DNA of 64,000 nt from NCBI RefSeq assembly GCF_000803315.1, contig NZ_JRMH01000001.1, forward strand, positions 2,170,001 through 2,234,000. Reading direction: 5' to 3'. Under the pieces are notes generated by a model, which searched no databases, was not told the origin of the DNA, and was given only the letters and a program-made list of their open reading frames with translations. This DNA is from Pectobacterium actinidiae. Lineage in GTDB: Bacteria; Pseudomonadota; Gammaproteobacteria; Enterobacterales; Enterobacteriaceae. This document shows positions 2,660 to 54,762 of the stretch, piece by piece; positions within the stretch are counted from its first letter, which is position 1, and each line of letters starts with the position of its first letter. A program made the translations under genes and the position numbers.

Positions 2660-3679
2660 TCAATCTTTATCGCTCAATTCCCCATGCAGGCTCTGCTGCA
2701 TCAACTGACGAATTTCATCGGCGCTTAAGTCTTGCTGGCTCAACAAGTAATGCAGCTTGGTCAAGGCAGCTTCGACAGTCATATCAAAGCCACTGATGAC
2801 GCCAGCGTGCGCCAGCGCATTGCCCGTCGCATAACCGCCCATATTCACGCGTCCGGAAATGCACTGCGTCAGGTTGACGACCACAATGCCGCGATCGGAG
2901 GCTTCATGTAACTCGCGCAGCAGGCCAGGGCTTTGCGGCGCATTGCCAACGCCGTAGGAGCGCAGAATAAGCGCTTTTACTGGCTGACGGAGGAAATTGC
3001 TGATGACATCGGCAGAAATGCCAGGATAAATCGTAATCACCCCGATAGGCTGCGGCGTAATGTGATGCACCTTCAGCGGCGGACAGTTGCTGCATTCCAC
3101 GGTAGGAGCCAGCCGACGAATATGGATACCGGCTTCCAGCAGCGGCGGATAGTTGGGGGAGGCGAAGGCGTCAAAACCGTCTGCATGGGCTTTGGTGGTG
3201 CGGTTGCCGCGCAGCAGTTTGTTATTGAAGAAGAGGGCGACTTCATTAATCGGATGATTAGCGGCAACGTATAGCGCGTTCAACAGGTTGGTCTGGCCGT
3301 CCGAGCGCAATTCTGCTAACGGGATTTGTGACCCTGTCACGATAACCGGCTTGGCAAGATTTTCCAGCATAAACGACAGAGCAGATGCGGTGAACGCCAT
3401 TGTATCAGTGCCGTGCAGAATCACGAAACCGTCGTAATCATCGTAGTGGTGTTGAATATCGTCCGCGATGGATTGCCAATCGGCCGGCGTCATGTCAGAC
3501 GAATCGATTAGCGGGTCATATTCATGAATCGTGAACGATGGCATTTCTTCGCGGTGGAATTCTGGCATGTTTGCCAATTGCTGCTGTAAATGACCAGATA
3601 CAGGTACATAGCCATTGGCTGATCGCTGCATACCGATGGTACCGCCCGTATAGGCGACATAAATGGATTTCTTTCGCAT
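2660..3679 (-). CDS. ansA: L-asparaginase I, cytoplasmic
   Basis: Hydrolyses asparagine to aspartate and ammonia. The 339 residues match type I bacterial asparaginases. The nucleophile motif YTGGTIGM has T14, and the second catalytic threonine lies in LHGTDTMAF at about residue 90. No signal peptide is present, which separates it from the periplasmic type II enzyme AnsB. It is followed closely by pncA and preceded by the sppA terminator. Confidence 0.95.
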   Translation of the reverse strand: MRKKSIYVAYTGGTIGMQRSANGYVPVSGHLQQQLANMPEFHREEMPSFTIHEYDPLIDSSDMTPADWQSIADDIQHHYDDYDGFVILHGTDTMAFTASALSFMLENLAKPVIVTGSQIPLAELRSDGQTNLLNALYVAANHPINEVALFFNNKLLRGNRTTKAHADGFDAFASPNYPPLLEAGIHIRRLAPTVECSNCPPLKVHHITPQPIGVITIYPGISADVISNFLRQPVKALILRSYGVGNAPQSPGLLRELHEASDRGIVVVNLTQCISGRVNMGGYATGNALAHAGVISGFDMTVEAALTKLHYLLSQQDLSADEIRQLMQQSLHGELSDKD

Positions 3680-9954: not shown

Positions 9955-10170
9955 GTATACTCCGCTCCTCGCAGGAGAGAGGGCGCATACCCGACATTAT
10001 TAGGGTATATGTGACGCTCCGCCGAAGGCGCAAACTCCCATAATCGCTCAGGCTACCCTAACTGCGAATTCCATTGAAGCCAACTGGAGAGAGGTTGTAA
10101 CACAACCCACCGAAGGGGCAAGCAGCGCTGCTGCGTAAACTCTCAGGTAAAGCGGACAGAGGGAGTGGCA
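9955..10170 (+). promoter_or_regulatory. Tandem glycine riboswitch
   Basis: Two consecutive glycine aptamers can be recognised. The first (about 9955-10060) has GCAGGAGAGAG, CCGCCGAAGGCGCAAACTC and CGCTCAGGC. The second (about 10087-10170) has CTGGAGAGAGG, CACCGAAGGGGCAAGC, AAACTCTCAGGTAAAGCGGA and CAGAGGG. The order and spacing are those of the cooperative two-aptamer class that binds glycine. Only about 20 nt separate its end from the GTG of the following gene, and the Shine-Dalgarno (AGGA near 10179) is in that gap, which suggests control of translation. The boundary of aptamer 1 is approximate. Confidence 0.92.
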
Positions 10171-10881: not shown

Positions 10882-11019
10882 GCTGCGCATTGCTCAAAAC
10901 CGTGCCGGTTTTGTCGAACCCTGGTCGAAGGCTCTCACCTTCCCCAAATGGGAATCTGATGCTTTGATGTTGGGATTTAATTCAGAAGTGCTGCTTTGAA
11001 ATGGTGGTGGGGGAAGGAT
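10882..11019 (-). repeat. tRNA-Tyr-linked repeat unit, distal copy
   Basis: A 138-bp block differing at 6 positions from the block at 11055-11192; the period is 173 bp. Its tRNA-proximal end is an exact copy of the last 18 bp of the tRNA-Tyr gene (11002-11019, the CCA end and 3' acceptor stem). Each unit contains a hairpin CAAAACCG/CGGTTTTG (10895-10913 here). The design matches the E. coli tyrT distal repeats that yield rtT RNA. Confidence 0.85.
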
Positions 11020-11054
11020 AACTCGTCGCTTCGCTCCTCGCCCTGCGGGTCAAT

Positions 11055-11174
11055 GCTGCGCATTGCTCAAAACCGTACCGGTTTTGTCGAACCTTGGTCG
11101 AAGGTTCTCACCTTCCCCTAGTGGGAATCTGATGCTTTGATGTTGGGATTTAATTCAGAAGTACTGCTTTGAAA

Positions 11175-12945: not shown

Positions 12946-13851
12946 ATGCAGCGGAAAAAAATTGGAATAGCCCTGGGCTCTGGGGCAGCGAAAGGATGGG
13001 CGCATATTGGTGTATTTAATGCGTTAACAGAAATGGGGATAAAGATTGATATTGTGGCCGGTTGTTCCATCGGCGCGCTGGTCGGTGCGGCGTATGCCAC
13101 AAACAACCTATCCTCAGTGGAGCGCTGGGTGAGGGCATTTGGTTACTGGGACGTGATTCGACTGATGGATCTCTCCTGGCAGCGCGGCAGTTTGTTGCGT
13201 GGCGATCGTGTTTTTAATAGTGTGAAGCATTTGTTACATACAACACAGATTGAAGACTGTGCTATTAAATACGGCGTCGTGACGACCAACCTCAGTACAG
13301 GGCGTGAGCTCTGGCTGACTGAAGGCGATTTGCATCAGGCTATGCGTGCATCTTGCAGTATGCCTGGCCTGCTATCCCCCGTTCGATTTAACGATTACTG
13401 GCTGGTGGATGGCGCGGTGGTCAACCCTGTTCCCGTTTCTCTGGCGCGGGCAATGGGTGCCGACATCGTAGTCGCGGTTGATCTCCAGCACGACGCTAGC
13501 CTTAATCATCAGGATTTGCTGTCGATCAAACCGACAGCGTCAGACATTGATGTGGAAAATGTTCCGCAAGGTTGGCGTAGCAGAATTCGGGAACGCTTAC
13601 TGCGGGGTCGTCGTCAGCAAGCGGAAAGTTCGCCAACGGCGATGGAGATAATGAGTACATCGATCCAAATTCTGGAAAATCGGTTAAAGATGACGCGGAT
13701 GGCGGGCGATCCGCCTGATGTGCTGTTGCAACCGCATTGCCCCCAGATTGCGACCTTAGATTTTCATCGGGCTCCGGAGGCGATTGAGGCGGGTTATAAG
13801 GCGGTGGAAAAGATGCGTGATGAATTGTTGCCGCTAGTGAAAGGGGCATAG
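12946..13851 (+). CDS. rssA: Patatin-like protein RssA
   Basis: A 301-residue putative phospholipase or esterase. It has the patatin oxyanion loop GSGAAKGWAHIG, the nucleophile elbow GCSIGALVG, and the catalytic aspartate in VDGAVVNPVP. The ATG at 12946 follows AGGTGG by 7 nt and matches the E. coli start. It precedes rssB by 117 bp, the same order as E. coli, but its role is unproven there too. Confidence 0.93.
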   Translation: MQRKKIGIALGSGAAKGWAHIGVFNALTEMGIKIDIVAGCSIGALVGAAYATNNLSSVERWVRAFGYWDVIRLMDLSWQRGSLLRGDRVFNSVKHLLHTTQIEDCAIKYGVVTTNLSTGRELWLTEGDLHQAMRASCSMPGLLSPVRFNDYWLVDGAVVNPVPVSLARAMGADIVVAVDLQHDASLNHQDLLSIKPTASDIDVENVPQGWRSRIRERLLRGRRQQAESSPTAMEIMSTSIQILENRLKMTRMAGDPPDVLLQPHCPQIATLDFHRAPEAIEAGYKAVEKMRDELLPLVKGA

Positions 13852-45660: not shown

Positions 45661-45690
45661 AAATAAAAAGCCCGCTTAGTTAAGCGGGCC
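45661..45690 (-). terminator. trp attenuator terminator (3:4 hairpin)
   Basis: GCCCGCTTA and TAAGCGGGC pair over 9 bp (45670-45689) with a 2-base loop, followed on the minus strand by TTTTTATTT. It lies between trpL and trpE and is the regulated terminator of classical trp attenuation. Confidence 0.93.
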
Positions 45691-45727
45691 TGGGAATATC
45701 TGCATGTGTGATAACAGCAATGCGTGA

Positions 45728-45790
45728 TTAGTCCACCCGCGATAGGGATGAGCGCCACCAACCATGCTTCATCATTTTCTGCGTTGCCAT
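45728..45790 (-). CDS. trpL: trp operon leader peptide
   Basis: A 20-residue peptide MATQKMMKHGWWRSSLSRVD with tandem Trp codons at positions 11-12, the sensor of tryptophanyl-tRNA. E. coli TrpL is 14 residues ([14 protein letters not shown]). The ATG at 45790 is preceded by GAGACGATGATA; an inner ATG (MKHGWW...) would give 14 residues and cannot be excluded. Confidence 0.9.
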   Translation of the reverse strand: MATQKMMKHGWWRSSLSRVD

Positions 45791-47032: not shown

Positions 47033-47653
47033 ATGAGCCAGTTTTTCTATATTCACCCACAGAATCCGCAACCGCGATTGATCAATCAGTCGGTGGAATT
47101 TTTGCATAAGGGTGGAGTGATTGTTTATCCAACGGATTCCGGTTACGCGTTGGGCTGTATGCTGGGCGAAAAGAACGCGCTGGAACGCATCTGCCGGATT
47201 CGCGACCTGGGTAGCGATCATAACTTCACGCTGATGTGTCGCGATCTGTCCGAGCTATCAACATATGCCCATGTTGACAATACCGCCTTCCGGTTGATTA
47301 AAAATAATACGCCCGGTAATTACACCTTTATTCTGAAAGCGACGAAAGAGGTTCCTCGCCGCTTAATGAATGAAAAGCGTAAAACTATTGGCCTGCGCGT
47401 GCCGTCTAATCCTATCGCCCTGGAGCTATTGGCTGCGCTGAATGAACCGTTGATGTCGACAACGCTGATGCTGCCAGGGAATGATTTCGCTGAGTCCGAT
47501 CCAGAAGAAATTCAGGAAAGATTGGGAAAACAGGTGGACCTGATTATTCACGGTGGTTCTCTGGGTCAACAGCCGACGACGGTTATCGACTTGACCGAGT
47601 CCGTGCCGCGCGTCGCCCGTGAAGGCACTGGTGATGTCACGCCGTTCCTATAA
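47033..47653 (+). CDS. yciO: YciO, Sua5/YrdC/YwlC-domain protein
   Basis: A 206-residue protein with the YrdC fold (GGVIVYPTDSGYALGC, RIRDLGSDHNFTLMC, KRKTIGLRVPSN). Relatives TsaC/Sua5 make threonylcarbamoyl-adenylate for tRNA t6A; YciO's own role is unsettled. Last core gene before the island; E. coli yciQ is absent here. Confidence 0.94.
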   Translation: MSQFFYIHPQNPQPRLINQSVEFLHKGGVIVYPTDSGYALGCMLGEKNALERICRIRDLGSDHNFTLMCRDLSELSTYAHVDNTAFRLIKNNTPGNYTFILKATKEVPRRLMNEKRKTIGLRVPSNPIALELLAALNEPLMSTTLMLPGNDFAESDPEEIQERLGKQVDLIIHGGSLGQQPTTVIDLTESVPRVAREGTGDVTPFL

Positions 47654-47799: not shown

Positions 47800-47817
47800 G
47801 ACGCCTGGGAAGGCGAC
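47800..47817. mobile_element. attL of the yciO-rluB island
   Basis: GACGCCTGGGAAGGCGAC, an exact 18-bp copy of 53628-53645. The core contains a small inverted repeat CGCC...GGCG. It marks the left end of the inserted element. It is not in a tRNA gene; it lies in the leader region upstream of rluB. Confidence 0.82.
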
Positions 47818-47954
47818 CAGCTATTTTTATTTATTCATTAAAAACAATGTCTTATTTTTTTTCATGCTATGAGTTGGGACTGTTTGTGTGACAGGGAATA
47901 CACCCACTCAGTAGCACTGATATGTTGTACAGCATCTTAGTTAGATTTGAATGT

Positions 47955-47978
47955 AAAAAAACCGAGTACAGAGCTCGG
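47955..47978 (-). terminator. Terminator of the 48030-48239 gene
   Basis: CCGAG/CTCGG stem (47962-47978) with TTTTTTT on the minus strand, 50 bp after the stop. Confidence 0.8.
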
Positions 47979-48029
47979 TTTACAGCTTGCATCATATAAG
48001 AACATCCCCCCTCTTAACGAATATTTTTC

Positions 48030-48239
48030 CTACTCCTCATCCTCAGTGTTAAACGTTTTGCTATACGGACAGTGTTTCGATTTAGTGACGTAAGTGAACG
48101 TATAAATACTGTTGCTGTAAACGCACAAAGTTGATCCATTTTTCATTGTTGACTGCTCAGGATTCCTCATTGTGATTTGACCAGCCATGGCATTGAACGG
48201 TAACAGCGAGCTAAGAAGCGCCAATATATAACTCTTCAT
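48030..48239 (-). CDS. Small exported protein, unknown function
   Basis: A 69-residue product. Residues 1-19 (MKSYILALLSSLLPFNAMA) form a classical signal peptide, leaving a mature peptide of about 50 residues starting GQITMRNPE with two cysteines (C39, C57) that could form a disulfide. A very strong ribosome site (AGGAGGG) precedes the ATG and a good terminator follows, so it is a real gene. I do not recognise the family. It is divergent from the next exported protein. Confidence 0.75.
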   Translation of the reverse strand: MKSYILALLSSLLPFNAMAGQITMRNPEQSTMKNGSTLCVYSNSIYTFTYVTKSKHCPYSKTFNTEDEE

Positions 48240-48317
48240 TACATTCCCTCCTGTAGCTATTGGTTGTCTTATCCGTGATAACGATAGGGTGTTTTCGCAG
48301 GAATTATAGTAACCATA

Positions 48318-48366
48318 TTGATCACTTTTAACGATCGATAATATAATTATGATCGATTTTATCGAT
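48318..48366 (+). promoter_or_regulatory. Cargo promoter with three ATCGAT palindromes
   Basis: TTGATC (48318-48323), 18 bp, TATAAT (48342-48347) is a plausible promoter for the plus-strand cargo pair. Palindromes ATCGAT at 48334, 48352 and 48361 flank the -10, spaced 18 and 9 bp apart, as operator half sites might be. Confidence 0.5.
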
Positions 48367-48401
48367 ATGATTGTTTTTTATGTAATGCGATGGAGGCTAA
48401 T

Positions 48402-48647
48402 TTGAAAAAAATTCTTTTGGTAGTTCTGGGACTTAGTGTTTGTGGTGGGGCGATGGCGGGTGATGGTTCGCCTGAACTCAAAGCTGAGAGTCAGGCGGTG
48501 ATTCGTCAGGCTGGGTATCAATGTAATAAGGTGAATGGCGTCTATCCCGCAGCTTTTGGCGGTTCAGTCACAGTCTTCTGCGATGATTTATACAAATATA
48601 TAATTAAGGATAAAGGTGGTCGCTATATCGTTGAAGTTGATGATTAA
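48402..48647 (+). CDS. Small exported protein, unknown function
   Basis: An 81-residue product starting at TTG 48402, chosen because GGAGG lies 5 nt upstream and the reading gives an uninterrupted signal peptide (MKKILLVVLGLSVCGGAMA). An ATG at 48390 would add four residues but lacks a ribosome site. The mature part is about 62 residues with two cysteines (in GYQCNKV and VFCDD) and the pattern VNGVYPAAFGGSVTVFCDD-YKYIIKDKGGRYIVEVDD. I have the impression that similar short exported proteins occur in other proteobacteria; no function is known to me. Twelve bp before the next gene. Confidence 0.75.
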   Translation: MKKILLVVLGLSVCGGAMAGDGSPELKAESQAVIRQAGYQCNKVNGVYPAAFGGSVTVFCDDLYKYIIKDKGGRYIVEVDD

Positions 48648-48659
48648 GGATGAACTGGT

Positions 48660-49232
48660 ATGACGGCTCAGACAATCAAGGTAAACAATCTATATTTTTA
48701 CTTCTTTTTGGTAATGCCACTAATAGTACCTATTTGTTACTATTTCATTAATGATGATATCTCTGCGTATATTATTTTCTACACTGCTGCTTTCGCTTGC
48801 GCATTTTTCGATCAAAAGGAAATGGTAAAATCAGAGCACGAATCAAAATCACAACTTGTCGCCTCAGTATTGGGGATCGTCATTTTTCCACCAATTTATG
48901 TCTATGGCCGGACGAATGCTTCTGGTATGAAAAAGTGGAGGTGGTTTTTTGTCTACATCGCAATTGTTCTTGCAAGTGTGTTTACCAGCGCAGCTATAGA
49001 AGCAAGCATGTCCCTTAAAACGACTGCATGCGAGATAACGACATCTATCTTCAAGGACAAAGGCACTGATACAAGATGCATAATAGTGAAGGATCTGGAG
49101 ACGGTTTCTTCCGGCTATTATCGTGCTAAAGCCGTTCTAACGAATGGTGTTGATGTACCAATAACCATTGAAGAACGCGAAGATAATTACATCTATGTAA
49201 CATTAGCACCACTGAGCAACCTGTTTGATTAA
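48660..49232 (+). CDS. Membrane protein of the island cargo, unknown function
   Basis: 190 residues with four predicted membrane helices (about 11-29, 34-50, 67-84 and 93-113) and a soluble C-terminal domain of about 75 residues with two cysteines (TTACEIT and DTRCIIV). It starts 12 bp after the preceding exported protein, so the two are probably one operon and may act together at the envelope. Family not recognised. Confidence 0.75.
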   Translation: MTAQTIKVNNLYFYFFLVMPLIVPICYYFINDDISAYIIFYTAAFACAFFDQKEMVKSEHESKSQLVASVLGIVIFPPIYVYGRTNASGMKKWRWFFVYIAIVLASVFTSAAIEASMSLKTTACEITTSIFKDKGTDTRCIIVKDLETVSSGYYRAKAVLTNGVDVPITIEEREDNYIYVTLAPLSNLFD

Positions 49233-49236
49233 AAGC

Positions 49237-49257
49237 TCAGGGGAGATTATCCCCTGA
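49237..49257 (+). terminator. Hairpin after the cargo membrane gene
   Basis: TCAGGGGA and TCCCCTGA form a perfect 8-bp stem with a 5-base loop, four bp after the stop. The following T content is low (CTCTTCCC). Confidence 0.6.
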
Positions 49258-49413
49258 CTCTTCCCCCCTGCAAAAATCGTCATCACCCGATAGTTTTGAC
49301 CAAAATATTACCAGTGCATTTTCTGATCAGCTAAGCGTGTGTCTAGTAGACAAAAGTTTAATGCCAATGATTTTCAAATATCAGATCAGTGAATTGATGG
49401 GGACAGTTTTAAA

Positions 49414-49531
49414 GGTATCAACAATCGAACGTTTTATGACGCCAATCTACATCCCCAAAAAATGGTATCAAAAAATTAGGGTGTTGACATAAAGATACCA
49501 TTAACTGATTATGATACCGTATGTTGATACC
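49414..49531. promoter_or_regulatory. Serine recombinase promoter with GGTATCA motif cluster
   Basis: Copies of GGTATCA at 49414 and 49464, and of its complement TGATACC at 49512 and 49525, plus AGATACC at 49493. They surround a promoter: TTGACA (49484-49489), 17 bp, GATTAT (49507-49512). The arrangement suggests autoregulation or a recombination site for the recombinase that starts at 49547. Confidence 0.6.
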
Positions 49532-49546
49532 AATTGAGAGGATGTT

Positions 49547-50116
49547 ATGAGTCGTACTTTTGCATATTGTCGTGTATCCACCAGCGAGCAGACGACAGAA
49601 AACCAGATCATGGCGATTCGTCAGGCTGGTTATGATGTGATTGCTCAGCGCGTTGTATCAGAAATTGTGTCTGGTGGTGTGCAAGCGATGAGCCGTAAGG
49701 CGTTCGCTAATATGGTTAATCATAAACTAGAAGCTGGGGATCAGTTGGTGGTGCTGAAGCTGGATCGCTTGGGCCGTGATAACATCGACGTACAGCAAAC
49801 TATTGCAATGCTCGTTGAGCTGGGAATTGACGTTGTATCGTTGGATCTACCAGTACGTAATCTCGCCAGCGCTGAAGGAAAGTTGATGCTACAAATGTTT
49901 TCAGCCTTTGCTGAATTTGAGAAGTCACGCATCGTAGAACGAACTAAAGAGGGCTTGGAGCGTGCGAAGAAGGAAGGAAAGAAATTAGGTCGCCCAGCAG
50001 CGACAGATACTCGTAGGCGTGTGCAGGAGGCTAGAGCTAAGGGACTAAGTCAATCTAAGGTGGCTACCGAGTTAGGTTTGAGTCTTCCAACCATTAAACG
50101 AAATTGGAACCAATAA
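49547..50116 (+). CDS. Serine recombinase (resolvase/invertase family)
   Basis: 189 residues. The N-terminal catalytic domain has the nucleophile S11 in YCRVSTSEQ, and LDRLGRDNIDV. The E-helix region is FSAFAEFEKSRIVERTKEGLERAK, and the C-terminal helix-turn-helix is GRPA...KGLSQSKVATELGLSLPTIKR. Full length for the small resolvase/invertase class. AGAGG lies upstream of the ATG. Its target is unknown; the GGTATCA cluster just upstream is a candidate site. Confidence 0.92.
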   Translation: MSRTFAYCRVSTSEQTTENQIMAIRQAGYDVIAQRVVSEIVSGGVQAMSRKAFANMVNHKLEAGDQLVVLKLDRLGRDNIDVQQTIAMLVELGIDVVSLDLPVRNLASAEGKLMLQMFSAFAEFEKSRIVERTKEGLERAKKEGKKLGRPAATDTRRRVQEARAKGLSQSKVATELGLSLPTIKRNWNQ

Positions 50117-50159
50117 GTAATATGTTCAATTTTGACAGCAATAAATTTGAGAAAATAAA

Positions 50160-50193
50160 AAGGGCCATATCGATTAAATCGAGTAGCCCTACG
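50160..50193 (-). terminator. Terminator downstream of the Gp2-like gene
   Basis: AGGGC and GCCCT enclose an inner TCGA/TCGA pair; on the minus strand TTTTTATTTT follows. It probably ends the minus-strand transcript of the 50379-51095 gene, about 190 nt after its stop. Confidence 0.55.
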
Positions 50194-50378
50194 GTGTTTA
50201 TTAGTCAAAATTAAGAATGATGTTCAATAAATTGCGTTTAAGTTGAGATGGCAGATAACGACGCACGTTAAGCGCTATATATCGCTCTGTAATCGATTTT
50301 TATTGTGTAACCAATACCTACCTACAACACACAGGTTAAAATCCAACATGAGTCGTTACATTGGGTATTCACGAATGG

Positions 50379-51095
50379 CTATTTTTTATTTCTTAGCTTT
50401 GACGTTGAATGTACACGATGACCCTTGCCAGTTTGGTTCTTCCCGCGCTCCTTGGCAAGATATGACACCCATTTGATTGGGCCTTCAAGCGTCTCTGGTT
50501 TACCACGTTCAATAACATAATTACTCGGAAAACGGTCATCCTTACCTAGAAGGTCAACCAGAGTATGTTCGCCCATAGTAAGGTCACACCAGATATCAAT
50601 AATAGCGCTGCCTACGCCATATGTTGGACCGCCTAGTCGCTGTGTGATTCGATGGGGGAGTGCGATCCAGCAGTGATAATGAACTTGTTTAGCCTTTTCT
50701 TTTTCGCATACCCAGCCATAGGCAAAATTGTTTATTGGGCTAGTAATGCCTTTTGGTCTGCGGTTCTTTGATTTAAGGCGTTCACGTAATTTCTTAAATA
50801 ATAATCTCATCCAATCATTGCTGATCTCTACAGTCGTACCTTTAGGTATACGCAAGTCAAAACGAGTAAATAACACACGGCTATAGATTGTCTGTATAGC
50901 CTTAAGTTCATCGACGATAGGAGTAAGAATATCTGATCGCACACCTGATTTATCTGTAGTGTTAATCGGATATTCAAAACCACCATAGGAGAATGTATTA
51001 CCACCTACCAGCGGATAGCGACCATGCTTATGTGAGATTGTTTTAGATGGAGTAGGTAGTCGAAATGCAGAGTCTAACTGTAGTGTTGTTAACAA
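50379..51095 (-). CDS. YagK/YfjJ (inovirus Gp2-like) protein, putative replication initiator
   Basis: About 238 residues. Family marks seen: FTRFDLRIPKG, the HYHCWIALP motif resembling a HUH metal site, and the C-terminal block EGPIKWVSYLAKER...GHRVHSTSK. YagK/YfjJ genes occur in E. coli cryptic P4-like prophages, and the domain is shared with inovirus Gp2 replication proteins; rolling-circle activity is inference. I chose TTG 51095 because GGGAGG lies just before it; an ATG at 51155 would add 20 residues without a ribosome site. Confidence 0.78.
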   Translation of the reverse strand: MLTTLQLDSAFRLPTPSKTISHKHGRYPLVGGNTFSYGGFEYPINTTDKSGVRSDILTPIVDELKAIQTIYSRVLFTRFDLRIPKGTTVEISNDWMRLLFKKLRERLKSKNRRPKGITSPINNFAYGWVCEKEKAKQVHYHCWIALPHRITQRLGGPTYGVGSAIIDIWCDLTMGEHTLVDLLGKDDRFPSNYVIERGKPETLEGPIKWVSYLAKERGKNQTGKGHRVHSTSKLRNKK

Positions 51096-51369
51096 AAAAC
51101 CTCCCTTAATATTTACACAAATGATCCTATACACCGACCTATAAGTTATTACCATCAGACCACCGCATAACGCTACCTAAGAAAATAGCTTGAAGCCTCT
51201 TCTAGCAAGGGGTACAAACGGGGGAAGTGAGGGTGTTTTTTTCGATCAAAGTTGCAGTGTATAAAAACCCATTTTTACAATAACAAGTTTCTATCGGGAC
51301 TGCAAGAACTAACTTAAATCAGCCCACCAACGAGGATTTAGACTTAAGGTTCCTACTAGGAATTTTTAC
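51096..51369. other. Noncoding spacer upstream of the Gp2-like gene
   Basis: About 270 bp between two minus-strand genes; it should hold the promoter of the Gp2-like gene and possibly a replication origin. I see no strong iteron or hairpin and no gene. Confidence 0.4.
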
Positions 51370-51720
51370 TCAGGAAAGCCGAAAATTGGTGCTGTATTTC
51401 TGATTGCAGCAAGGACAAAAATTTATCTTTCCCGTTGCAATTAGGAACCAACGAGATATGCCAGAACGATCTATGATGTAACCCACCAAACCCGCGTCAG
51501 TCAGTACAGAAAGATTTCGGTGTGTGCTTGAAAGTGGAACGCTTAGGCGTTTTGAAAGTTCGAGAGCTGTACTTGGGATAACTGTTCGGGTGAGGTGGAA
51601 TAAGATATTGATACGCGAAGTTGTCAGTGTTAATCCCGCTGACTTCAGGATGGTTGCCATACGTTTACGCTCATCCAAAAGCGGTGGCCTAAACGCTGGC
51701 AGATTGGACTCAGTGTACAA
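51370..51720 (-). CDS. Short Fur-like winged-helix regulator
   Basis: 116 residues with one DNA-binding domain like that of Fur/Zur: AGLTLTTSRINILFHL, then ELSKRLSVPLSSTHRNLSVL (recognition helix) and DAGLVGYIIDRSGISRW (wing). A C-terminal CPCC motif remains, but the usual Fur dimerisation domain with its histidine-rich metal sites is missing; typical Fur is about 148. The start is TTG 51720 with GAGAGG upstream. Likely controller of the element. Confidence 0.78.
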   Translation of the reverse strand: MYTESNLPAFRPPLLDERKRMATILKSAGLTLTTSRINILFHLTRTVIPSTALELSKRLSVPLSSTHRNLSVLTDAGLVGYIIDRSGISRWFLIATGKINFCPCCNQKYSTNFRLS

Positions 51721-51784
51721 GTTTTCCTCTCTGCGAGTTGATTGATCTCACAGAGAATTTTATCAAACAATACCAAAAAATGGA

Positions 51785-51803
51785 AATGAGAATTATTTTC
51801 ATT
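51785..51803. promoter_or_regulatory. Fur-box-like palindrome
   Basis: AATGAGAATTATTTTCATT: two 9-bp arms around a central T, matching as inverse repeats at 8 of 9 positions, and close to known enteric Fur boxes. It lies 65 bp upstream of the Fur-like gene's start, in its promoter region. Confidence 0.7.
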
Positions 51804-51873
51804 TTCGGGTGTTTGCTAATTAACAGATCATTACAGTTATTTTAAATTTTTCTGTATGATTTTATTATATAAA

Positions 51874-53559
51874 TTATTGGCGACTTGCCCAATCAATGAC
51901 TGGAAGTAAAGCCTTCAATGGTGGTGTATGTGTGTATCTGGCTGTGATACCGAGAGATTGCGTTCTACTGTGACCCACGACAAATTGAACCAACGCGTGA
52001 TTTCCAACGGATGCTATCGCATGACTTATAAATGTATGCCGTAGTGAATGTACCCGCCGCTTTAGTCCAAACTCGTTGTAATCTGGTATCTCTAGCACTC
52101 TGAGCAATTCCACCCAATCATAAGTAATAGTTGTATAGTTTGGAAGATTACCAAACACACGGTCGGAATCCTTAAGGGTTTCCACACAAGCCCGGAGTTC
52201 TGCCTCTATAGTCTTATGGATTGGAACCTGCCGCCGAGCATGTTCGGTTTTCCCACCTTCAATAAAGATATACCAACGTCCAGTCTCTTCATCTTTCCTT
52301 ATGTGTTGTTTGCGGATTTCCGCTATCTCACTTCTACGGGCACCTGTATAAACCAAAGTGAGGAAGTACCATTTCCGATAATCACTATCTGGTAGGGCGA
52401 AAAGATACTTTTTGATCCGGCTCAGTTCGCTATCGATGTATTTTCCACCCCGGTTGGATTTCACCTCGTGGCTAATCCCATCGGTAGGAGATTTGGTCAG
52501 TATATCCTTCTGATCCACCAGATACGTTTTGAGCAATGAGCGCCAGAGCTTTAAATGCTTGTGGACGTGCTCACTGGCGATCAGGTCATCCTCGGGCACA
52601 TCGTAATCAATACACTCGGCAAGACTCATTCTGGAATAAGGGAGTCTAGTTCGAGTAGGCAGATTCTCCGCAACCTTGAGGGAATCCCTTACATGCTGTT
52701 TCGTAACGCTATCGACAGGGACGTCGCCTACAACATGGTAGAGAACATCAAAGAAGCGCTGATTCTCGTTTGCTGTTTGTTTCCGCCACTTTTGACCTTT
52801 ATCCTTTATATATTCATTCCACACCTCTAGCAAAGTAGGCCCTATGGCTGGGGATGTCTCATCAAGTGCAACTTTATTTTGAGGGAATGATTCTTGTAAA
52901 ACTGCCTTGTCCGTTGGAGCTGCTTTCTGCAAAGCAGAAGCCATAGAGTCTAGGATCTGTTGGTATCGGATCAAATCACCAGAATAGAACGCCTCATAGG
53001 CCTGTGACATAAAGGCCTGATTCATATCTATCTGGCTGGCAATATGGTGAATCTGATCAAGGTCGGATTCATTAACCGTTAACATCTTCTTTTTGAGTGC
53101 AGCAGTCATCATTCTGGCTGAAATATCGTTACCGTTATACATATGCCCCATATGGGAGTTGGCGTAGCCTTGCGCCTCGTTTGCAGTGTCTAGGGGCGAT
53201 AAAGGCTCACCTGTAATCTGTTTATGATACCTGCCTAATTCTGGTAACCGTTTAGCCTCTTCAAGGCCACCTTTTAGCCAATTCAAGAGATATTCATCAA
53301 AGTCTTGTTTTGTGGCGGCTCGGAAGCCCTGTATTTTAAGTTTGAACTCTTCAAGATCCATCGCTCCATTCTGAACAAGGGGAATGAAAGGACGGATCTG
53401 ATTCATAATCACTTCTGCTTGCTTTCGGCTATCAGTGCCGAGAGTTAGGCGAACAGGAGTTGTTGAATCATTTTGTCTAAAGTTAGTGTAATATATGCGC
53501 CCACGAATCATTGTGTGTGACAGCTTGTGTGACCTATTGTTTGCCATGCTGTTTGCCAT
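51874..53559 (-). CDS. Large tyrosine-type site-specific integrase
   Basis: 561 residues, larger than most phage integrases (350-450). The C-terminal catalytic domain has every active-site residue: R408 (TGARRSEI), K437 (GGKTEH), H504-x2-R507 (HSLRHTF), H530 (GHSR) and Y542 (TARYTH). A SAM-like core-binding domain lies about 240-370. The long N-terminus (1-240), with MIRGRIYYTNFR, is of the kind seen in prophage integrases with a DUF6538-like arm-binding region. It reads away from attR, ending next to the Fur-like gene. Ribosome site weak for ATG 53559; ATG 53547 is an alternative. Confidence 0.94.
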   Translation of the reverse strand: MANSMANNRSHKLSHTMIRGRIYYTNFRQNDSTTPVRLTLGTDSRKQAEVIMNQIRPFIPLVQNGAMDLEEFKLKIQGFRAATKQDFDEYLLNWLKGGLEEAKRLPELGRYHKQITGEPLSPLDTANEAQGYANSHMGHMYNGNDISARMMTAALKKKMLTVNESDLDQIHHIASQIDMNQAFMSQAYEAFYSGDLIRYQQILDSMASALQKAAPTDKAVLQESFPQNKVALDETSPAIGPTLLEVWNEYIKDKGQKWRKQTANENQRFFDVLYHVVGDVPVDSVTKQHVRDSLKVAENLPTRTRLPYSRMSLAECIDYDVPEDDLIASEHVHKHLKLWRSLLKTYLVDQKDILTKSPTDGISHEVKSNRGGKYIDSELSRIKKYLFALPDSDYRKWYFLTLVYTGARRSEIAEIRKQHIRKDEETGRWYIFIEGGKTEHARRQVPIHKTIEAELRACVETLKDSDRVFGNLPNYTTITYDWVELLRVLEIPDYNEFGLKRRVHSLRHTFISHAIASVGNHALVQFVVGHSRTQSLGITARYTHTPPLKALLPVIDWASRQ

Positions 53560-53627
53560 TAAATAGTTATATATCAGTGGATTACGTCAATCCCGGTGTT
53601 AACTCGTTGTTTTTTTAAAGTATACCA

Positions 53628-53645
53628 GACGCCTGGGAAGGCGAC
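53628..53645. mobile_element. attR of the yciO-rluB island
   Basis: Exact 18-bp copy of the attL core, 15 bp upstream of the rluB start. The integrase gene starts about 70 bp away, the usual position beside an attachment site. Confidence 0.82.
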
Positions 53646-53660: not shown

Positions 53661-54545
53661 ATGAGCGAAAAGTTACAAAAAGTTCTGGCGCGTGCCGGAC
53701 ATGGCTCACGCCGCGAAATTGAAGTTATCATTCAGGCTGGACGCGTCAGCGTTGACGGTAAGATTGCCACGCTGGGCGATCGCGTTGAAGTGACGAAAGC
53801 CACCAGAATCCGTATTGATGGCCATGTGGTTACCGTTAAGGAAACCGAAGAATCTGTGTGCCGCGTACTGATGTACTACAAACCGGAAGGTGAACTGTGT
53901 ACTCGTAACGATCCTGATGGTCGTCCTACGGTATTCGATCGTCTGCCAAAAATTCAGGGTTCTCGCTGGGTTGCGGTAGGGCGGCTGGATGTGAACACCT
54001 CCGGCCTGCTGCTGTTCACGACAGACGGTGAGTTAGCCAACCGCCTGATGCACCCGAGCCGTGAGGTTGAGCGCGAATACGCAGTACGTGTCTTCGGTGA
54101 AGTTGACGATGAAAAAATCAAACAGCTGAGCAAAGGTGTACAGCTGGAAGATGGTCCGGCATCATTCCGCACTATCCGCTATCAAGGTGGTGAAGGCCTG
54201 AACCAGTGGTATAACGTGACGCTGACCGAAGGGCGCAACCGTGAAGTTCGCCGTCTGTGGGAAGCGGTTGGCGTGCAGGTTAGCCGCCTGATTCGCGTGC
54301 GTTACGGTGACATTACGCTGCCGAAAGGCATTCCACGCGGTGGCTGGACAGAAATGCCGCTGGAACAACTGAACTATCTACGTGAATTAGTACAGCTTCC
54401 GGCAGAAACGGTATCGAAACTGCCAGTTGAGCGCGAGCGCCGCCGGGTGAAAGCGAATCAGATCCGTCGTGCGGTAAAACGCCACAGCCAGATCAACAGC
54501 GCTCCGGCACGTCGTACCTCGCCAAAACCTAAGCGCAACGGTTAA
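53661..54545 (+). CDS. rluB: 23S rRNA pseudouridine(2605) synthase
   Basis: 294 residues: an N-terminal S4 RNA-binding domain (about 3-60) and an RsuA-type catalytic domain with the aspartate in [19 protein letters not shown] (D near 110), and a basic tail. The coding region is intact despite the adjacent island, but its upstream leader is replaced by island DNA beyond 15 bp from the start. Confidence 0.95.
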
Positions 54546-54590: not shown

Positions 54591-54750
54591 AGGCTGCTGA
54601 CAGACCTATTTACCGAATGAGAACGGGCGTAACGGAATAGAAGAGTAAAGCGTTTGCGCCAGGGATGGCGCAATCCGAGCTTACATGGACGTACTTGCAG
54701 CGTCTTTACGATCTATCCGTTACTCCCGCGCACCAGCCTTTGTCAGCAAT
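54591..54750. repeat. Long palindromic intergenic repeat, copy 2
   Basis: About 160 bp, the short form of the element at 28975-29206, without the extra hairpin-rich centre. Left arm GTAACGGAATAGAAGAGTAA and the inverse of the right arm GTAACGGATAGATCGTAAAG are alike, so the whole can fold on itself. Ends carry GCTGACA-type inverted termini. Between convergent rluB and cobA. Confidence 0.75.
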
Positions 54751-54762
54751 GAAAATTAACGA

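Follow-up and report, generated by a model that had tools for sequence, protein, structure and literature searches.

The 64,000-nucleotide stretch of Pectobacterium actinidiae DNA analysed here (the window) contains an integrated element of 5,828 bp with one att copy included (47818..53645, no strand assigned), delimited from its repeats, the joined flanks and GC content. It lies between the core genes yciO (47033..47653, plus strand) and rluB (53661..54545, plus strand) and is bounded by identical 18-bp direct repeats: the attL core GACGCCTGGGAAGGCGAC at 47800..47817 (plus strand), in the rluB leader, and the attR core at 53628..53645 (plus strand), which is followed by 15 nt and then the rluB ATG. 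The exact terminal repeats described in an earlier note were thus recovered, as was the AT-rich composition, with a GC content of 41.5% inside the element versus 52.4% and 53.6% in the flanks. The two cores are the only matches in the window at three or fewer mismatches; the mean expected by chance was 0.02, and none of 100 shuffles yielded two. When the 400-bp end regions were compared, the longest exact shared repeat was the att core, the runner-up being 10 bp. The core comprises a 5-bp stem with a GNRA-type loop, forming a hairpin in the rluB leader. In Pectobacterium it shares its reading frame with the rluB ATG, but by eye the leader in Klebsiella does not, and the core was therefore treated as non-coding rather than as rluB coding sequence. 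A promoter scan was uninformative (16 found versus 15.2 expected).

The 18-mer is present in all 25 same-genus genomes searched, and the yciO-rluB site is unbroken in 23 of them and occupied in two (G000 and G008). The joined flanks align through a single copy of the 18-mer in the 23 genomes, over 333 of 333 bases in 21 and over 331 in the other two. The single-copy empty site that had been suggested as a check on the element was thus found, and the element genes do not stand between yciO and rluB in every relative; repeats and empty sites together bear out an integrative element with precise ends. The copy in G008 is approximately 91% identical to the window element, and another gene occupies its C slot.

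All seven main reading frames of the element, referred to here as A to G, are open. A (48030..48239, minus strand) is a 69-aa small protein of phrog_4641 with a signal-peptide-like start by eye, and relatives of it occur at 11 further loci, while locus L030 has a fragment. B (48390..48647, plus strand) is an 85-aa small protein, of secreted type by eye, and matched 53 proteins in the protein search. C (48660..49232, plus strand) is a 190-aa membrane-type protein of phrog_12486, a family found in 7 of 394 genomes of the order and in none of the 14 controls. The earlier note had not remarked on the secreted look of A and B or the membrane-protein-like look of C, judged by eye. The model of C consists of helices followed by a C-terminal beta domain (pLDDT 85), for which Foldseek gave no match at E<=0.001. 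Among plasmids, C matched 26 records, all at less than 60% identity; the matches listed were 27-31% identical, on plasmids of 52-198 kb. A, B and C are predicted to be membrane or periplasmic accessory proteins, and our guess is that they have envelope effects such as superinfection exclusion.

The expected serine recombinase is encoded by D (49547..50116, plus strand; PF00239, 121.6 bits). Directly upstream lies a res-like array (49414..49531, plus strand), with half-sites at -133, -83, -53, -34 and -21 from the D start. Across 12 loci the serine recombinase is preceded by paired half-sites arranged as three subsites, the exceptions being the window, where the -109 half-site is degenerate and is not found at one mismatch, and L022, which lacks those at -133 and -83. 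The Tn3/gamma-delta res arrangement served for comparison: as in the Tn3 family, a three-subsite array adjoins a small serine recombinase, but the element has no transposase, and PHROG annotates the best-matching family of D as DNA invertase. The array favours a resolvase role for D over the invertase of the PHROG label.

The Gp2/YagK-like assignment held for E (50379..51155, minus strand), which matched YagK_YfjJ_C at 36.6 bits against a cut-off of 25.8 and in which H159-Y-H161 and Y232xxK235, the HUH motif and catalytic tyrosine, are invariant among the aligned rows. By eye, translation might instead begin at an in-frame TTG near 51095. The sequence CGGTGGTCTGATGGTAATAACT (51144..51165, minus strand) coincides with or precedes the E start; its 13-mer GATGGTAATAACT was found near E in eight loci at zero to one mismatch and was absent from the seven plasmid loci and from seven islets; speculatively, it may be a piece of the origin. 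F (51370..51720, minus strand, TTG start) encodes 116 aa of a truncated Fur-like winged helix with a CxxC that is invariant in 10 rows. Support for its description as a short Fur-like regulator came at profile level, in a search against the PDB where the best match was PerR (2fe3, E 6e-5), followed by several Fur chains, the chains of cytochrome c oxidase 5B at E 0.037 and weaker being noise; a single-sequence Pfam search gave no FUR match. The PerR/Fur match spans residues 17-107, and F is without most of the second half, the metal-site C-terminal part. G (51874..53559, minus strand; PF00589, 43.2 bits, cut-off 27.1) is the tyrosine integrase claimed beside one end, its start lying 68 nt from attR and its C-terminal part containing R...HxLRH...Y, which we take to be the active site.

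Relatives of G fall into three clades, each with a single target (the rluB leader hairpin, rnpB or a TPP riboswitch), G itself belonging to the rluB-site clade, and the clades sit on a partly interchangeable backbone. In the riboswitch-site class the integrase gene stands directly behind an intact TPP aptamer of the thiM type, so that excision in this class could be gated by thiamine pyrophosphate. Among the titles and abstract openings listed in literature searches, none dealt with this islet family or with integrases at the rluB leader or a TPP riboswitch.

The gene set had been called unfamiliar, a description that does not hold, since the backbone recurs whole or in part in E. coli, Citrobacter, Klebsiella, Kosakonia, Symbiopectobacterium and others. 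The whole backbone (A, B, serine recombinase, Gp2/YagK-type HUH protein, truncated Fur-like regulator and tyrosine integrase) is held by the E. coli flk flagellin islet of ECC-1470 (L027; Feng 2008 and Liu 2012, cited in PMC5422975), putatively GI10; the other islets carry subsets. Its gene order, A- B+ (C slot) ... D+ E- F- int-, is that of the window element, and identity is 87% for D, 75% for F, 73% for B and 72% for A. In contrast, L027 sits at rnpB, its integrase is only 31% and its Gp2 (annotated as complete, 233 aa) 35% identical, and it carries flagellin and repressor genes, whereas the element at rluB is without flagellin and no flagellin or fliC-repressor family was found among its ORFs. 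Small Gp2-type plasmids (Klebsiella plasmids of 5.5-5.9 kb, pRHB38-C24_9 and pPGSB8459) share the Gp2-type protein with the element, a serine recombinase in most of those examined, and an F-type wHTH in the two Klebsiella plasmids examined. They differ from it in that E is only 33-38% identical, no integrase is annotated in L021, L154, L155 or L158, and no relatives of A, B or C were found on them at E<=0.01. Two further islands in the same genome as the element (L071 and L072), which we take to be of CP4-57 type, have a YagK_YfjJ_C protein and a C-type protein of 29% identity, but carry AlpA, a GTPase, RadC and CbeA/CbtA, and nothing in them matches A, B or D. The Pseudomonas IntY/AlpA/Gp2 islands I23, I44 and I55 are described as having a tyrosine integrase, flanking direct repeats, a Gp2-like gene and an insertion beside a structured RNA gene, without transfer genes; unlike the element they are much larger (the shared region alone is ~18 kb), sit at tmRNA and carry AlpA, YqaJ and defence genes, and the main text on them does not mention a serine recombinase (PMC12595487). 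An island family of the Enterobacteriaceae is the topic of PMC6035254, and the inovirus Gp2 family is mentioned in PMC9769692.

On two small circular plasmids the Gp2-type gene is the only annotated replication-type gene, which suggests that replication of the element may be autonomous; a third (L156), where it is not the only one, is ambiguous. Judging from sequence, the element is probably the integrated copy of a small integrative islet of rolling-circle plasmid type. G would recombine the two 18-bp cores to release a circle, E would nick the origin and replicate the circle by a rolling-circle mode, D would resolve multimers at the res array, the Fur-like F would control rep or int, and G would reinsert the circle at rluB. 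Movement from cell to cell would be passive, by way of a conjugative plasmid or phage. The absence of capsid and transfer genes reported earlier was upheld, the seven ORFs giving no capsid, portal, terminase, relaxase or secretion match at E<=0.1; even with autonomous replication, transfer would need a helper, and helper-dependent transfer is possible.

The helper could be a tailed phage that packages and spreads the element as a satellite. Transduction has been reported for the larger Gp2-bearing Pseudomonas islands, in the case of I55 through a jumbo phage (PMC12595487); the resemblance to I23, I44 and I55 in Gp2-like gene and integrase without transfer genes fits this reading. At E<=0.01, A also has relatives in 132 phage records, of which the 20 listed are phages of 137-156 kb, and the IMG/VR contig L187, the sole viral contig with C, carries relatives of A (67%) and C (53%). 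We nevertheless consider a satellite of this kind rather unlikely, as the element gave no match to families for AlpA, capsid remodelling, terminase or packaging, no DNA match to it was found among 50,697 phage records, and C and E had no match in phage records at E<=1e-5. Phage satellites have as hallmarks AlpA, capsid-size or terminase-redirecting proteins and a P4-type primase, and with these families absent from the element a P4/PICI satellite was rejected. HUH proteins include relaxases, and the Gp2 protein or a cryptic oriT might allow the element to be transferred by a conjugative plasmid or ICE resident in the cell. Integrative mobilizable elements are described as highly widespread (PMC5704250). 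This assignment is distinctly unlikely here, however: the element has no relaxase family match and no conjugation genes, and a Gp2 relative was present in 21 plasmid records, 18 of them predicted to be non-mobilizable and three conjugative.

It is highly improbable that the element is an inovirus satellite or remnant, in which Gp2 would make single strands for packaging by a helper inovirus. Gp2 is by name an inovirus-type replication protein, 5.8 kb falls within the inovirus size range, and a Zot-family match (PF05707) was present in 5 of the 25 same-genus genomes; but the same family matched 5 of the 14 controls, so a match does not single out inoviruses, and Zot was absent from both occupied genomes. 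As the element lacks coat, Zot and assembly families and no relative of E was found among viral contigs or phage records, a filamentous-phage satellite was set aside. An immobile remnant that persists by chance or because of the A to C genes would agree with the low occupancy and with the broken integrases of some relatives (L023, G435, G466 and G521), yet is very doubtful given the open frames, the identical repeats and the G008 copy with its exchanged C slot. As a defence island the element was also rejected, PADLOC matches being weak (CARF, Csa3, TniQ) and in two of the seven proteins.

Some relatives in other bacteria bring along flagellin or anti-phage genes and occupy other conserved sites that encode RNA; the cargo of the larger ones is alternative flagellins or a DRT2 reverse transcriptase. 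The comparison suggests that some E. coli flagellin islets are cargo-bearing versions of the small integrative replicon. We tentatively propose, with somewhat less than even confidence, that these elements form a widespread, unrecognised class of integrative rolling-circle plasmids in Enterobacterales, in which one backbone (Gp2, resolvase/res, Fur-like regulator and secreted A/B) takes up swapped integrase modules, each for one conserved non-coding RNA or leader element (the rluB leader hairpin, RNase P RNA or a thiM-type TPP riboswitch), and ferries flagellin and anti-phage genes. The window element is a small family member whose frames are open and whose empty site is defined. The pattern of interest lies at the level of the family, where integrase clade follows target on a partly interchangeable backbone; this split makes the family useful for studying the evolution of target choice, and the riboswitch-site class raises the directly testable idea of metabolite-gated excision.

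The element at 47818-53645, between yciO and rluB, is bounded by exact copies of the 18-bp repeat GACGCCTGGGAAGGCGAC at 47800-47817 and 53628-53645, and no third copy was found in the window at up to 3 mismatches (0.02 expected). GC content is 41% inside the element versus 52-54% in the flanks, and rluB is cut off from its own upstream region by the insertion. A pattern search gave a match in 25 of 25 same-genus genomes, and the exact 18-mer core is present in each of the 25 loci fetched from them. The joined yciO-side and rluB-side flanks aligned across a single core copy in 23 of the 25, the empty site whose search the earlier note had proposed, and the site was occupied in two, the window genome (G000) and a second Pectobacterium (G008). 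The integrative element described in that note is real and was correctly delimited. Known RNAs in the window are a glycine riboswitch (10074-10169), RtT RNA (11002-11131), the Trp leader (45662-45766) and Ysr224 (54647-54753).

Seven proteins, A to G, are encoded. By eye, A (69 aa, minus strand, 48030-48239) and B (85 aa, plus strand) each have a signal-peptide-like start and a cysteine pair, while C (190 aa) is membrane-protein-like, with a beta domain at the C-terminal end of its predicted model. The remaining four are a serine recombinase (D), a Gp2/YagK_YfjJ protein (E), a winged helix (F) and a tyrosine integrase (G). The short Fur-like regulator proposed earlier holds, at profile level, as a truncated, Fur-related domain: a single-sequence search with F gave no Fur match, but a 10-row F profile matched PerR (E value 6e-5) and several Fur chains, with weaker matches that include cytochrome c oxidase chains. 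In G008 the element and its flanks align with the window as four blocks of ~91% identity, but the gene in the C slot, which in either element comes after B in the same orientation, is another one in G008, of 204 aa, with, by eye, a zinc ribbon and a membrane segment.

The same note had called this gene set unfamiliar, a description contradicted by islets that carry the backbone in whole or in part, of which five are given here as examples. Among those with flagellin and repressor cargo, the E. coli ECC-1470 locus (L027, at rnpB) has A (72%), B (73%), D (87%), F (75%), E (35%) and G (31%); L026 (rnpB) has A, B and D with E at 60% and G at 31%; L031 (rnpB) has D, E, F and G; and L029, an island adjoining tRNA-Phe, shares only A and B. 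In L028, whose cargo is DRT2 and whose site, upstream of thiM, is flanked by a pair of TPP riboswitches, the shared genes are A, B, D, F (33%) and G (41%), and E finds no match. It follows that the integrase and some backbone parts were exchanged independently of one another. A genome-contig scan with D gave 74 loci, and in seven of them (L080, L081, L082, L084, L085, L087 and L146) a relative of A, B, E or F is encoded as well (E value ≤1e-4); the other 67 have none at that threshold, five of them showing only weak integrase matches (29-35%). Among 5,426 E. coli genomes, 95 have partial matches to the left 3,984 bases of the element, and in no case is 80% of that query covered. The element DNA matches 17 plasmid records and no phage record.

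Protein A has relatives in 132 phage records (<60% identity, E value ≤0.01), the phages being 137-156 kb among the 20 matches listed. On a 12.4-kb IMG/VR contig (L187), A (67%) and C (53%) relatives adjoin each other, with no D-G match. Two CP4-57-type islands of the window genome (L071 4204-11605 and L072 4318-11737; C1 at about 196-204 kb and 3,145-3,153 kb) are 89% identical, and L071 contains AlpA, YagK_YfjJ, a GTPase, a C-type membrane protein, RadC and CbeA/CbtA. Leclercia pG3L-2 (L025, 11,644 bp) consists of two copies, nearly in tandem, of a Gp2 plasmid of 5.8 kb, one half having a split Gp2 and no annotated recombinase.

A family-level search found integrase relatives in 23 of 392 genomes (E value ≤1e-60), at 24 distinct places in 25 rows. 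By target, six are at rluB/yciO, six immediately follow rnpB and 11 immediately follow a TPP riboswitch (five reaching the Rfam gathering score, six just under it, E value ≤4.7e-6); one, L180, was assigned to none of these. In a tree of 30 integrases from 34 candidates (L167, L169, L178 and L180 left out), the three target groups formed three clades with two changes, the minimum possible, a split equalled by 0 of 200 label shuffles; the tree was built by a quick method, with long branches flagged and a few near-copies, which ease clustering. When folded, the rluB core forms a stem of 5 bp capped by a loop, which is GGGA in 25 and GUGA in 8 of 33 leaders or element edges. Since tyrosine integrases usually act on targets with dyad symmetry, the RNA itself need not be what the integrase recognises. 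In two rluB-site elements (L082, 13237-14974; L165, 1495-4196) the integrase lies toward yciO rather than rluB, indicating that the element is reversed on the nearly palindromic core. The rluB-site element of L023 (NZ_CP098171.1), a 233.7-kb record labelled as a Klebsiella plasmid with a chromosomal-looking yciO ... rluB-topA-cysB stretch, has both its integrase and D interrupted.

In the TPP-site elements (L028, L170-L172, L174, L175, L177, L179 and L181-L183) much of the aptamer is duplicated; the stretches concerned in L028 are 2914-3078 and 13473-13605, the duplicated part being 76 nt and 95% identical. The integrase gene follows the aptamer directly on the same strand (gap of 67 nt in L028; for L175 and L183 the start of the integrase gene is uncertain). 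Thiamine pyrophosphate might thus affect expression of the integrase.

Approximately 130 bp upstream of D is similar among 12 loci, with GGTATC/GATACC half-sites at about -133/-109, -83/-53 and -34/-21 from D. The window lacks the -109 half-site at one mismatch, L022 lacks those at -133 and -83, and the L081 array is offset by 21, presumably through a differently placed start. This three-subsite half-site array beside D is like the plan of Tn3/gamma-delta res. Multimeric circles would give resolution a purpose, which fits rolling-circle replication.

The anatomy points, with fair confidence, to an integrative rolling-circle plasmid-type islet. That confidence is tempered slightly by the structural matches for an HUH fold in E, which tied with unrelated chains. 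Each step of the cycle is inferred from this anatomy: G would excise the element, E would replicate the circle by rolling circle, D would resolve multimers at res, F would regulate, and G would reintegrate the circle. The dependence on a helper that the earlier note inferred is possible for transfer. The nearest experimental precedent found for transfer is the larger Gp2-bearing island I55 of Pseudomonas, which is reported to be transduced by a jumbo phage (PMC12595487). What is new is the view of the family, in which one plasmid-like backbone would be combined with partly interchangeable integrases, each integrase clade having one conserved RNA or leader target.
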